Shown here: positions 2,871 through 61,893 of the stretch, piece by piece
Numbering within the stretch: the stretch's first letter is position 1
Layout: each line of letters starts with the position of its first letter
From: Spirosoma endbachense
Lineage (GTDB): Bacteria > Bacteroidota > Bacteroidia > Cytophagales > Spirosomataceae
Assembly: GCF_010233585.1 (NCBI RefSeq)
Contig: NZ_CP045997.1
Coordinates: 4,841,284-4,905,283 of the forward strand
Reading direction: 5' to 3'
Length of the DNA: 64,000 nt
Notes under the pieces: model-generated
Told to the model about the DNA's origin: nothing
Databases searched by the model: none
What the model saw: only the letters and a program-made list of their open reading frames with translations
Made by a program: the position numbers and the translations under genes

Positions 2871-3404
2871 ATGAAAAAGTGCATCGGTGTTTTGTTTGTA
2901 CTGGCTATTGTCGCTATGGCGGGTTGTTCGCCCAGTAGACTGTTTGTGGAGCATGATTATAGCTACGAGGGCCATTTTAAGAACTACGAATCGTTTAATT
3001 TTTTAGAGTGCGAATTTGTCGACTCGACACTTCTCTGCTCCGATATTCAGGACGCCATCCGTCATCAGATGGAAGCTCGTGGTTATCGTGTTAGTAACCG
3101 CAATCCGAACCTGCTGATATCGTATAATATTTTCCGGTCAGATCTTCGGTTCCGGGGGTATCAGCAGCCCGTTATCAAGGACTGGGTTGTTCGTGAAGAC
3201 GATGATGCAACCTACAAGCGTATTGATTACAACCTGGATGAAGGTACTTTGATGATTTCGCTGATCGATGCCGAGTCGTATCAGGTTATCTGGAAAGGCT
3301 ATGCGTCGAAGATGATGCGTAATCCAAACTTTAAGAATAATTACTTCAAAGGAATTGTCCGATCAATTTTCGATCAATATCCGTTGATGGCAACGGCCCG
3401 ATAA
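2871..3404 (+). CDS. DUF4136-type lipoprotein
   Basis: 177 residues. The N terminus is a lipoprotein signal with lipobox MAGC (Cys19), so the mature protein should be lipid-anchored in the cell envelope. The body resembles DUF4136: a strand-rich start (YEGHFKNYESFNFLE), a helix IQDAIRHQMEARGY, the segment PNLLISYNIF, and the closing GTLMISLIDAESYQVIWKGYASK motif. The biochemical role of the family is unknown. It has its own promoter at 2768 and a very strong terminator at 3411, so it is probably transcribed alone. Confidence 0.8.
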   Translation: MKKCIGVLFVLAIVAMAGCSPSRLFVEHDYSYEGHFKNYESFNFLECEFVDSTLLCSDIQDAIRHQMEARGYRVSNRNPNLLISYNIFRSDLRFRGYQQPVIKDWVVREDDDATYKRIDYNLDEGTLMISLIDAESYQVIWKGYASKMMRNPNFKNNYFKGIVRSIFDQYPLMATAR

Positions 3405-3410
3405 GTACTA

Positions 3411-3475
3411 CAAAATAAGAAATGGCCATGCACCAAGGTAAACTCTGCTTTGGTGCATGGCCATTTCTTATTTTG
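3411..3475. terminator. 26-bp perfect inverted repeat, convergent terminator
   Basis: Arms 3411-3436 and 3450-3475 are perfectly complementary over 26 bases with a 13-base loop. The outer parts are A/T runs, giving a T-rich tail in both directions. It separates the DUF4136 gene from gldA and covers the gldA stop codon (3468-3470). Confidence 0.85.
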
Positions 3476-4385
3476 TCAGCTCTTTAAAAATCCCTTCCAG
3501 CGAACTTTCCTGCTGGCGAAGACCAATAAGGGTCAGGTTCTGATCGGCAGCCAGACGAAAAATAGCGGCCCTTAAATCCGTATTTGGAGCCGCTGTGATT
3601 CGATATTGACCCTGCCCCAGCGGCTCGACCCGCTCAATTCCAGATACGGTTTTCAATATATCTGGCGTCGATAAATCATCCTCAAATTCGGCTACAACCA
3701 CGATGCCATCGCCTGCCGATGCGCTTCTGAGCTGGCTTAATGACCCATCGGCAACAATCTGCCCTCGATTGATGATCACAACACGGTCGCAGACGGCTTC
3801 CACTTCCTGCATGATGTGCGTTGAAAAGAGGACCGTTTTGTTGCGTCCGGCATTACGAATAACCTGCCTGATTTCGGCTAGTTGGTTCGGGTCCAGGCCC
3901 GTAGTTGGTTCATCAAGGATCAGTACGGGCGGGTTATGTAGTAGGGCCTGCGCTAACCCAACCCGCTGGCGGTAACCTTTTGAAAGTTGACCAATGCGTT
4001 TATGCTGCTCGCGGCCCAATCCAACCAATTCAAGTACATCGGCCATGCGTTGGGTCAGCGCTGAACCACGCAGGTTATGTAATGATCCGGCAAAGCGCAG
4101 GTATTCTTTAACGTATAAATCGAGGTAAAGCGGATTGTGTTCAGGCAGGTAGCCAATGCTCCGACGCACATCCATTGGATGCGTTCTGACATCGAAACCG
4201 TTCACTTCGACCGTACCATCAGTAGGAGGCAGGTAACCCGTAGCGACCTTCATGGTTGTTGACTTACCAGCCCCATTAGGACCAAGAAATCCGACAATTT
4301 CACCCGGTTGAACCGTCAGTGAAATCTGATTAACGGCCCGCTGGTTGTTATATTCTTTCGTTAGGTTCTGAACCCGAATGGACAT
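3468..4385 (-). CDS. gldA: GldA-type ABC transporter ATP-binding protein
   Basis: 305 residues, the normal length of GldA. Walker A GPNGAGKST is at residues 35-43, a Q-loop region follows (SIGYLPEHNPLY), the ABC signature is LSKGYRQRVGLAQAL, Walker B is VLILDEPTTGLDP, and the switch His lies in STHIMQEVEAVCD. The C-terminal 70 residues form the extra domain usual in GldA. In flavobacteria GldA works with the membrane proteins GldF and GldG in gliding motility. Neither gldF nor gldG is next to it here, so its partner must be elsewhere and a related drug or polysaccharide export role cannot be excluded. Confidence 0.85.
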   Translation of the reverse strand: MSIRVQNLTKEYNNQRAVNQISLTVQPGEIVGFLGPNGAGKSTTMKVATGYLPPTDGTVEVNGFDVRTHPMDVRRSIGYLPEHNPLYLDLYVKEYLRFAGSLHNLRGSALTQRMADVLELVGLGREQHKRIGQLSKGYRQRVGLAQALLHNPPVLILDEPTTGLDPNQLAEIRQVIRNAGRNKTVLFSTHIMQEVEAVCDRVVIINRGQIVADGSLSQLRSASAGDGIVVVAEFEDDLSTPDILKTVSGIERVEPLGQGQYRITAAPNTDLRAAIFRLAADQNLTLIGLRQQESSLEGIFKELTK

Positions 4386-7509: not shown

Positions 7510-7553
7510 ATCATTTGAAGCCAATCAGCTATTAAACCAGCGTATAATGCCAA

Positions 7554-7633
7554 TAGGACTTTGGCTTCGAGCCGTGCCACGGTTAGGAAGCACGTGATTA
7601 GAAACCGTGGCACGGCTCGAAGCCAAAGTCCTA
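7554..7633. repeat. Dispersed inverted-repeat element, copy 1
   Basis: A perfect inverted repeat with 31-bp arms (7554-7584 and 7603-7633) and an 18-base loop. The inner arm ends with GAGCCGTGCCACGGTT and the outer end is AGGACTTTGGCTT. The same architecture and core occur at 50751 and 51224. It lies between two genes on the same strand and has no T-tail, so it need not be a terminator. Confidence 0.85.
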
Positions 7634-7667
7634 ACCAAGTAATGTCTAACAATTTTTTATCCCCTTT

Positions 7668-8136: not shown

Positions 8137-8188
8137 AGTATAGATTTTTTGCCCATAATCCGAAGATTATGGGCAAAAAATCTATACT
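8137..8188. terminator. 24-bp perfect hairpin
   Basis: Arms 8137-8160 and 8165-8188 pair perfectly around the loop CGAA. Runs of T and A in the arms give a T-rich stretch on either strand. It lies between the small lipoprotein gene and the oppositely oriented integrase scrap. Confidence 0.75.
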
Positions 8189-25832: not shown

Positions 25833-26609
25833 CATGGAGTGTAATTGCCCAAACTCACCCTCAAACTTGATCACCTGTTTGAGGGTGAGTTTGGGCGCGA
25901 TTCGGAACAGCCTCGAATCGCGTTTATAGAGAAAGCCTTCGTTGGGAGTGGGGGAATCTTTGGGCCGGTACTGCAAATCGGTGGGTCTGCCGATGGCAAT
26001 ATCAAACTCCCGGCGGGTAGCCGGTCGGCCCCTAAAGGGGTTGATAATGTTTTCTTCGACGCCGTCCACGCTGGTCTGGCTGTCGTACTCATCCTTCCAG
26101 GCTCTTGCCATTCCTCATCAACCTCCATGAAGCCGGTGGGCATTTCGTCGGGCTGTAAGGCGTTGAAATTCAACAGGCTTTGCCCGTAGAAGGCCCCAAA
26201 GCGGCTGTACTTGCGCAGGTTTTTGGTATTGCACAGGATCTCATTAATCAGTTCCAGGCCATACTTGCCGTCGGTGATCTGGATGCAATCGGGCTTAAAG
26301 TGGTATTTGATGCACTCCAATACGCCAGATAAATACTGGTTCAGATCGGATTGGCCGGGTTTGATGTAGTCTTTTACGGGAAAGCCTTTCCGTCGAGAAC
26401 GATGTTGTTTTGCTCATCGCGTTTTCAGGTGTAGAGTGTTTCGTAGTGAATGCCGAATAGGTCGACGCATTGCCGGTTTGCTTGCGCCAAAGCCGATTGA
26501 CCACCAGACGCACCTGCTCAACACTATAGCCGGGATGCTGTAAAATAAAGCTATGCAGGTGAATATGAAGCCCATGCGTTTTGGAGCGTTTGACCTCAAT
26601 ACCATATTC
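25824..26609 (-). pseudogene. Broken rolling-circle (HUH) replication initiator
   Basis: Minus-strand pieces read EYGIEVKRSKTHGLHIHLHSF with an HUH motif (HIHLH), EQVRLVVNRLWRKQTG, GIHYETLYT then a TGA, QNNIVLDGKAFP, then after a frameshift VKDYIKPGQ, GVLECIKYHFKPD, LELINEILCNTKNLRKYSRFGAFYG, LQPDEMPTGFMEVDEEW. This order (HUH motif, later K-Y-x-x-K-x-x-D, then a conserved R-x-x-x-x-G) is that of Rep_1/pC194-type plasmid initiators. A last piece, AIGRPTDLQYRPK, FLYKRDSRLF, continues to 25824. The start and motif 1 are missing. Family assigned by eye, so moderate. Confidence 0.6.
25847..25896. repeat. 19-bp inverted repeat at the IS4/Rep junction
   Basis: Arms 25847-25865 and 25878-25896 pair perfectly (GCCCAAACTCACCC and onward) with a 12-base loop. 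It lies within the end of the Rep remnant, a few bases from where IS4 similarity begins, so it may mark the insertion or rearrangement point, or it is a former plasmid replication or recombination structure. Confidence 0.6.
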
Positions 26610-26632: not shown

Positions 26633-26689
26633 AAGCATACAGGATTGTTTGTCGCGGGAACTTCCCGCGACAAACAATCCTGTATGCTT
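26633..26689. terminator. 28-bp near-loopless hairpin at the tonB 3' end
   Basis: Arms 26633-26660 and 26662-26689 are perfectly complementary with a single-base centre. It overlaps the tonB stop codon (26688-26690). It would stop transcription of tonB into the remnant DNA, though no strong T-tail follows. Confidence 0.7.
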
Positions 26690-34640: not shown

Positions 34641-34641
34641 T

Positions 34642-34702
34642 GTTTAGAGTCGTGGAGCCATGCCACGATTCAAAACCGTGGCATGGCTCCACGACTCTAA
34701 AC
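34642..34702. repeat. Dispersed inverted-repeat element, shorter variant
   Basis: Perfect 26-bp arms (34642-34667 and 34677-34702) with a 9-base loop. The inner arm GTGGAGCCATGCCACG shares its core with the elements at 7554, 50751 and 51224, but the outer ends differ (GTTTAGAGTC). It begins directly after the subtilase stop and could also terminate that gene. Confidence 0.75.
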
Positions 34703-34807
34703 AAAAGACCTTCGACAGTATGAAGAAAAATTAATTTCGTTTTCAGACTGGCTTTATATGAGGCCACTAGTTTTGCTTCCATCATGAACAGTAAATAACA
34801 AGTAACA

Positions 34808-41664: not shown

Positions 41665-41732
41665 TTTACAGTTTATAGTTTTCAGTGCACAAGGCAGCCT
41701 TGCCTTGTGCACTGAAAACTATAAACTGTAAA
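41665..41732. terminator. 32-bp perfect hairpin
   Basis: Arms 41665-41696 and 41701-41732 are perfectly complementary with a 4-base loop, the longest perfect stem in the window. It lies between the small ORF (minus) and the acyltransferase (minus), so it should stop transcription coming from hisB, which would then give the acyltransferase its own promoter. Confidence 0.8.
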
Positions 41733-49610: not shown

Positions 49611-49635
49611 TAATTTTTTGTAAAATAGTAATGAT

Positions 49636-49690
49636 GAATGAGCGAAAGCCATTGCCGAACAAACTCTTTGGCAATGGCTTTCGCTCATTC
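49636..49690. terminator. 21-bp perfect hairpin between convergent genes
   Basis: Arms 49636-49656 and 49670-49690 are perfectly complementary (GAATGAGCGAAAGCC and onward) with a 13-base loop, between the GLPGLI gene and the GNAT gene. Confidence 0.75.
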
Positions 49691-49772
49691 ACGCAGGGCG
49701 GGTAATTCTATCGTAAACACTGATAGGCCAGGCTTTCATGGCTACGACAAGTGGCATGGGATATTTCCAGAC

Positions 49773-50733: not shown

Positions 50734-50750
50734 AGCAATGATTATTTACC

Positions 50751-50828
50751 AGGACTTTCGCTGAGAACCATGCCACGGTTTGTTTGCGCATCACGAGTAA
50801 CCGTGGCATGGTTCTCAGCGAAAGTCCT
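50751..50828. repeat. Dispersed inverted-repeat element, copy 2
   Basis: Perfect 30-bp arms (50751-50780 and 50799-50828) with an 18-base loop. Ends AGGACTTTCGCT, inner part ACCATGCCACGGTT. It lies in the gap between the divergent DUF7674-like and 51565 genes, 17 bases ahead of the former, where a terminator would have no purpose. Confidence 0.85.
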
Positions 50829-51126
50829 ACAACGTACTGCCAACCTATACTAATAATTCTGTGCCATGATTTTAGAGTGTTATTTATGTCGTTGTACTTC
50901 AATTAATTACGCTAAAGCCGATTTGCCCGGAGAGTTGCGAAGTATATCATTTTGATAAGGTGCTCTGTCAAAATAATAGTGACCGGCTCAAAACCTGTGC
51001 AGGTATTGGTCGGTAAAGTGGGCGGAATTAGCTATCAATGCCCAAATCAATGTCTTCAAGTTTTAACTAGCAAGTAGTCTTCCAATTTCTATTTTATACG
51101 TATTAGTCATGAAGGTGGTTGATGAC

Positions 51127-51159
51127 AAACCTATAAGGTTTCAAAAACCTTATAGGTTT
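51127..51159. repeat. ACCTATAAGG palindromic repeat, copy 2
   Basis: Perfect 15-bp arms (51127-51141 and 51145-51159) with loop CAA, almost the same sequence as the repeat at 14551-14584. Confidence 0.7.
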
Positions 51160-51222: not shown

Positions 51223-51223
51223 A

Positions 51224-51315
51224 GGACTTTCGCCTGGAGCCGTGCCACCGCACGGGCGGACCGTGGTTTGTTTGCGCATCACGAGTAACCGTGGCACGGC
51301 TCCAAGCGAAAGTCC
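51224..51315. repeat. Dispersed inverted-repeat element, copy 3 with a 16-base insertion
   Basis: Same element as at 50751, in the same intergenic region. The 18-base loop (51269-51286) is identical to that of copy 2. The left arm has 16 extra bases after GTGCCAC and a C for T near its outer end; otherwise the arms match. Left arm 51224-51268, right arm 51287-51315. The gap 50734-51564 (831 bases) holds four repeats and no gene. Confidence 0.8.
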
Positions 51316-51564
51316 CAGGACTGGTACCTGATGATACTGGAACGAGCGGTAATCGGAGAAATAATCTGGCTGGACTAGCTAGCATGATGCAGTGAACGAA
51401 TAGCTAAGAAGCTTCTGATTACAATCGTTTACTATTCTGATAGTGTAAGTATGAAAAACAAAAGATAAAGAATAAATAATTGATGATTAGATATTTTACC
51501 TGTTATTTATTTTGTGAAATTTTGATTTATATACTTTAAATTGCGTCAATAATCTTCCTCTTTT

Positions 51565-61671: not shown

Positions 61672-61689
61672 GATTGGTTAAACGAGTAC

Positions 61690-61748
61690 AGGGTTTTCGG
61701 CTGGAATAATGCCACGGTTTGTATCAAAGTTATAGATAACCGGGACAC
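61690..61748. repeat. Degraded copy of the dispersed inverted-repeat element
   Basis: The segment GGGTTTTCGGCTGG, then ATGCCACGGTTTGT resembles the left arm and loop start of the elements at 50751 and 51224; only ATAACCGGGAC remains of the right arm. It lies between divergent genes DUF4249 and the TonB receptor. Confidence 0.5.
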
Positions 61749-61893
61749 AACTCCCTGTGAAAATCATGATAGTAATTTAGTCGGATTTTTTTGATAGATA
61801 ATAAGATGGGAGCTAATCAGTTAGAATCTGGAGATAGATCCTTTTATATATAGCTTCAGAAGTAGTTGCAATCATTCGTTTACTTTACTTTGC

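Follow-up and report, generated by a model that had tools for sequence, protein, structure and literature searches.

The genome of Spirosoma endbachense carries, in the 64-kb stretch of DNA analyzed here as a whole (the window), several hairpins of about 80 bp whose two arms match each other, while the copies differ among themselves. Did these hairpins spread as a mobile element, are they a structured RNA or DNA family, and why do their arms change together? In the following, G000 is the window genome and G004 that of a sister species. The relevant features of the window are listed below, none with an assigned strand.

7549..7553: left 5-bp target duplication of copy 1, GCCAA, a 4/5 match to 7634-7638
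7554..7633: element copy 1, T-AGG...CCT-A, 31-bp arms and 18-nt loop, a perfect inverted repeat, by folding
7634..7638: right 5-bp target duplication of copy 1, ACCAA, read from the sequence
34641..34703: shorter relative, 27-bp arms, 9-nt loop, other outer ends
50750..50829: element copy 2, C-AGG...CCT-A, 30-bp arms and 18-nt loop (50781-50798); inverted repeat at 50751-50828, by folding
51223..51316: element copy 3, with an insert of ~13-14 nt in the left arm (~51249-51261) and an inner loop at 51269-51286
61684..61758: possible degraded relative, fold lost (folding z-score -1.4)
about 61836..61858: empty site of a copy carried by G004 at 1697364, from the G000-G004 comparison

Folded as DNA, the copies at 7554 and 50751 have z-scores of -15.3 and -12.9, respectively. 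They have the 30-31 bp arms and the 18-base loop that the initial annotation ascribed to all three copies, but copy 3 (51224-51315) has 25-bp arms, 96% paired, with 42 nt in between because of the insert in its left arm. The innermost 18 nt of copy 3 are identical to the loop of copy 2, and the arms of the two differ. Tabulating 60 loops of eighteen bases in G000 gave no identical pair, so that the shared loop probably arose by a local duplication or conversion. The site of copy 1 is also filled in G004, with the loop the same way round. For copy 2, the 5-mers on either side are unlike (TTTAC and CAACG) and the matching site in G004 is empty. Copy 3 is missing from G004, but the region is rearranged there. 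The shorter relative reported near 34642 is a true one: it is also present at this site in G004, where 5 bp of the arms differ in mirrored fashion and the loop is probably inverted. As for the degraded relative reported at 61690, it may be a vestige, which aligns without gaps to a similar stretch of G004, but its fold is gone. Where Pfam identifies the genes next to the window copies, they have no relation to each other (a type IX-secreted protein, a subtilase, and a DUF7674 protein).

The window has nine perfect inverted repeats with arms of at least 20 bases and loops of at most 20, against none in one mononucleotide shuffle. Six long perfect hairpins lie outside the family (3410-3476, 8137-8188, 25847-25896, 26633-26689, 41665-41732, and 49635-49691). 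Another short palindromic repeat, AAACCTATAAGGTTT...AAACCTTATAGGTTT at 51127-51159, matches DNA in at least 14 of the 36 genomes of the genus.

Distribution, insertion sites, and search for the mover

A search of the whole genome revealed a large family instead of only the known copies. The pattern TGCCACGG-N10-40-CCGTGGCA occurs at 82 places in G000 (one contig of 10.3 Mb), against one for the reversed-pattern control, and this is a lower bound, since the stretches that were fetched contain 11 further G000 copies with an altered core. Across the 36 genomes of the genus, G000 is followed by G004 (57 places), G003 (20), G007 (12), and G009 (10). The remaining 31 genomes have 0-3 places each, where the reversed control gives up to 2. 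Some loops of G003 are found again, identical in every base, in sequence records of S. arboris. No match to the pattern was found in 132 sampled genomes from other genera of the family, in 394 other genomes of a phylum sample, or in the plasmids searched, and viral contigs had no exact-pattern match. A stricter 22-base pattern, run on 84,980 species represented by a single genome each (a scan that may not include the window's own genome), returned 25 stretches, of which 20 belong to Spirosoma and the other 5 to Niastella. The five Niastella cores come from three species (L045-L048 and L065); at least two have a similar loop (GTTTGCG), the arms are mostly short, and a 5-bp duplication is absent. 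Pfam searches of nine ORFs adjoining these cores gave no transposase, one ORF being without any match. AGG/CCT-like ends in Niastella were not supported as element ends when the copies and their flanks were examined.

Intact copies have the form YAGG-arm-loop-arm-CCTR between 5-bp target-site duplications. The element is about 80 bp long with arms of 20-30 bp; a copy is a hairpin with no space for a gene. The outer YAGG/CCTR and the core are its most constant parts and are thus likely to be the binding and cutting sites, the constancy of the core being partly an artefact of its use as the search query. Two features that had been taken as fixed turned out to be variable. A loop of 18 bases is merely the commonest length (60 of 87 matches in G000 and 41 of 59 in G004, of which one, at 6558991, looks unrelated), and AGGACTTT is the most frequent outer end instead of a constant one.

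The evidence for transposition comes from the flanks and from empty sites. Among 99 copies, picked by outer ends and paired arms from all the sequence examined, the two flanks are 0.701 identical when 5 bases are compared, and 0.27-0.33 identical for 2-4 or 6-10 bases. Shuffled flanks give 0.306 at length 5 (maximum 0.378), and there are 27 perfect 5-bp pairs for 0.5 expected. A set of 95 copies picked by their core has a 5-bp flank identity of 0.693. Several copies in S. arboris, S. endophyticum, G007, and G009 have 5/5 duplications; in others of these genomes the duplications are eroded or the outer ends were not recognised.

From the 87 G000 matches in the fetched stretches, 32 could be mapped to G004 by both flanks. 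Upon reading, 17 of these sites are filled in both species, 7 are clean empty sites in G004, and 8 are unclear, i.e., rearranged, decayed, or partly deleted. The 34641 relative, mapped on its own, is filled in both. Conversely, G000 has clean empty sites for two copies of G004, one of these sites being within the window (~61836-61858). Copies are present in one sister species and absent from the orthologous sites of the other. At 3658631, for example, G000 reads TAT-AGTTG-(TAGG..CCTA)-AGTTG-ATA and the empty site is TATAGTTGATA. Seven of the nine clean empty sites fit YAGG...CCTR plus 5 bp exactly, three with identical duplications (3658631, 923855, and 843649) and four with 1-2 mismatches. 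The exceptions are G004 2835201, which fits 7 bp, and window copy 2, which is one base short. At the site of G000 7772403, G004 retains only a AAAGTCCT-like remnant (L155, ~3351-3391), which indicates that copies can be lost by deletion.

The hairpin family is a mobile element, a fully palindromic MITE; this was one of the options of the initial annotation, and the target-site duplications and empty sites support it. A 5-bp target duplication points to staggered cutting by a DDE-type enzyme, on which grounds the element is classed as a MITE, and a transposase of this type, acting in trans, was probably its mover. No transposase was seen attached to the copies, in agreement with the earlier description. 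We searched for the mover elsewhere. IS1380 (PF13701) was rejected, with no match over the cut-off in the 36 genomes and one weak match in G007. DDE_Tnp_1 (PF01609) has 10 matches in G000 and 3 in G004, and in the available sequence of these 13 loci no convincing element-like ends were seen, three-mismatch end matches being frequent by chance. The exact end TAGGACTTTCGCT occurs at 42 places in G000, 15 of them unpaired and outside known copies. An autonomous copy was sought among these 15, which by eye are only variant or truncated copies: most are variants in which the core is different, a GC-rich module such as CACCGCAGCCGCGGACGGTGG being present in some, and those at 497273, 2398261, and 9825103 are truncated. 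The end at 497273 has a candidate partner 1126 bp off, with 3 mismatches and 4/5 flank bases alike, which we take for chance because the only listed ORF wholly between the two has 105 aa. A search for long end pairs in 2.5 Mb of stretches yielded 15 weak ones, and none of them was convincing upon visual inspection.

Matched arms and inverted loops

The observation that the arms of a copy vary together proved robust. In 76 G000 copies, the left and right 20-base arms agree at 18.63/20 positions within a copy and at 11.33/20 across copies; the summed agreement is 1416, against a maximum of 937 in 2000 shuffles. In the 95 core-picked copies, the 13 bp of each arm that vary are 0.966 identical within a copy and 0.669 between copies, with a mild bias in that altered-core copies entered this set only if their arms paired. 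The target duplication of a copy dates from its insertion and can be presumed to drift without constraint. Across this set of 95, these duplications are now just 0.693 identical, and in the 24 copies where they have eroded to 2/5 or less the arms are still 0.952 identical. Since arms remain matched while duplications of the same age have eroded, the matched changes need no RNA function.

Orthologous copies show such changes between species. In 15 G000-G004 pairs, 31 of 300 arm positions have mirrored changes, 28 changed on the left only, 24 on the right only, 7 show other double changes, and 210 are unchanged. By our own estimate, about 5 mirrored changes would be expected with independent arms. 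The 52/300 one-sided changes are concentrated in pairs with arm insertions, for which a count in fixed register is unfair. The script found no G004 core for 4810329, 903457, and the decayed 5053385, which the count omits. Some hairpins of unrelated sequence behave alike. Of those in the window, 3410, 8137, and 49635 can be aligned to G004, and mirrored arm changes are found in 3410 (4 mirrored and no one-sided changes over 3410-3476) and 49635. Among 49 unrelated hairpins of G000, 13 were aligned and 4 counted, a small sample, with 7 mirrored, 5 one-sided, and 72 unchanged positions.

Loops also changed. There are 18 sites filled in both G000 and G004, whose flanks are still ~86-98% identical. 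Fourteen could be oriented, and the loop is inverted in 6 of these: 3782033, 5289516, 6018198 (all 18 bases exactly inverted), 903457, 928405, and, with less clarity, the 34641 relative, where 10/11 bases match inverted and 7/11 forward. It has the same orientation at 3059128, 3492530, 4658677, 4848858 (7554 in the window), 5059271, 7571025, 7765842, and 8584658. The loops at 3195250, 4810329, 5062257, and 5244153 have been replaced or are too altered to orient. That a loop or half-element can be replaced while the site stays the same suggests exchange between dispersed copies as well. By eye, two of the 13 aligned unrelated hairpins (3659303 and 6012470) also have inverted loops. In two S. 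arboris copies (L055 and L068) the flanking 5-mers are inverted and not direct repeats, the palindrome extending into the flank. A perfect palindrome also runs past the usual ends in L072, L075, and L076 (G007 and G009).

We consider it likely that the family is a palindromic, non-autonomous MITE of ~80 bp that was moved in trans, and that the inserted hairpins were then altered by template switching during replication. A DDE-type transposase acting in trans would recognise the outer ends and/or the GTGCCACGGTT core, cut with a 5-bp stagger, and move the element; its parent element would be elsewhere or lost. After insertion, a second process would take over, in which replication jumps from one arm to the other as its template, so that one arm is overwritten with a copy of the other and the loop is sometimes reversed. 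Exchange among dispersed copies may in addition swap loops and inner modules. Replication template switching best explains both the matching of the arms and the flips of the loops, whereas selection for a cruciform or an RNA could be an alternative way of keeping the arms alike.

Genomic context and alternative explanations

A crude ORF caller, which counts 86% of the DNA as coding, places 130 of 137 copies between genes. These comprise 71 co-directional, 35 convergent, and 24 divergent positions, when the corresponding classes make up 58, 14, and 28% of the intergenic length. The median distance is 42 bp to flanking stop codons and 97 bp to flanking starts. This position near gene ends would suit ordinary intrinsic terminators, an explanation that we regard as very improbable. 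Only 3 of 105 family hairpins have a T-rich run after them or an A-rich run before them (at least 6 in 8 bases), so they are not built as intrinsic terminators, although single copies might act so. Besides, the copies have target duplications, and the 24 that lie between divergent genes show that they do not always follow stop codons. The proximity to stop codons and the excess of convergent positions would also fit a functional RNA or DNA hairpin that was inserted as a mobile element and whose pairing is now kept by selection, e.g., at mRNA ends or as a protein site. This explanation would also account for the strong covariation (over 31 pairs in 24 aligned copies, four rearranged copies being left out, 56 cells are double changes, 4 are one-sided, and 13 are broken or gapped) and for the recurrence of the core and part of the loop in Niastella. 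Yet the same alignment has double changes with hardly any one-sided states, and the sense-strand mismatches of co-directional copies are 21 G-T against 17 A-C (and 21 of other kinds), i.e., without a clear wobble excess. Furthermore, loop orientation shows no preference (18 vs 14), the window has no Rfam match at the gathering score, and some unrelated hairpins have similar mirrored changes. We thus find it unlikely that these are structured RNAs, as had been envisaged, or other selected hairpins.

An enzyme might instead act on the inserted hairpin of the same MITE, either its transposase or a cruciform-cutting resolvase, and produce the arm identity and the flips. The flips being near half (6/14), though flanks remain ~86-98% identical, would favor it. 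However, the mirrored changes and inverted loops in hairpins of unrelated sequence point to a general process, and we give this explanation the same low chance as selection. The least probable of all is that the copies are REP sequences moved by a RAYT (Y1 tyrosine) transposase, the other origin proposed by the initial annotation. They resemble REP and REPIN sequences in being short, dispersed, extragenic palindromes. Yet Y1_Tnp (PF01797) has no match in G000 and G004, the two copy-richest genomes, and we rejected RAYT as the mover for this reason; it does occur in 29 of the 36 genomes of the genus, including the next carriers G003 (9), G007 (10), and G009 (7). HUH transposases are not known to make a target duplication, whereas the copies have duplications of 5 bp. 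Finally, the REPs listed in PMC3733652 have stems of 5-13 bp and a GTAG or CGTC tag, and the ~30-bp arms of the Spirosoma element are far longer.

Relation to known elements and significance

The bacterial MITEs RUP, ERIC, and Correia/NEMIS are described in PMC2229807 as gene-free elements of less than 200 bp that have terminal inverted repeats and a target duplication and can form hairpins. The Spirosoma element is likewise short and gene-free, with many intergenic copies, a target duplication, and a hairpin. In contrast to them, it consists almost wholly of an inverted repeat, and its copies differ strongly from each other, each being self-complementary. A parent transposase has been proposed for RUP (IS630-Spn1; PMC2229807), whereas our searches found none for the Spirosoma element. 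Rickettsia palindromic elements, also covered there, are dispersed long stem-loops of 105-146 bp. Many of them lie within genes, unlike the mostly intergenic Spirosoma copies. The best-ranked matches of a literature search included no description that we recognised as this MITE family.

The process that we favor for the changes within the hairpins, replication template switching, is known: it homogenises arms and inverts the loop or spacer, as described in PMC8604942 and PMC8794818 for coding genes of yeast and for RNA genes. The Spirosoma case differs in being a transposon family. We did not find described the combination of a near-total palindrome as a transposon, copies that diverge yet remain self-complementary, and target duplications that serve as a control of the same age.

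Compensatory change in a hairpin is usually taken as proof of a selected structure, and this family warns against equating covariation with function. Each of its dozens of hairpins comes with a target duplication of the same age to measure it by, and the arms stay matched as that duplication decays, which makes a mutational explanation of arm matching testable in bacteria. The definition of a palindromic MITE family with a 5-bp duplication also makes its transposase searchable. More tentatively, Spirosoma genomes might have unusually high template switching, with all long inverted repeats re-copied from arm to arm and loops flipping towards equilibrium between sister species; we hold this to be possible, if rather doubtful. 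If this holds, the palindromic MITE would need no selection to remain a perfect hairpin, and the rate of template switching could be read from its 5-bp duplications as from an internal clock.
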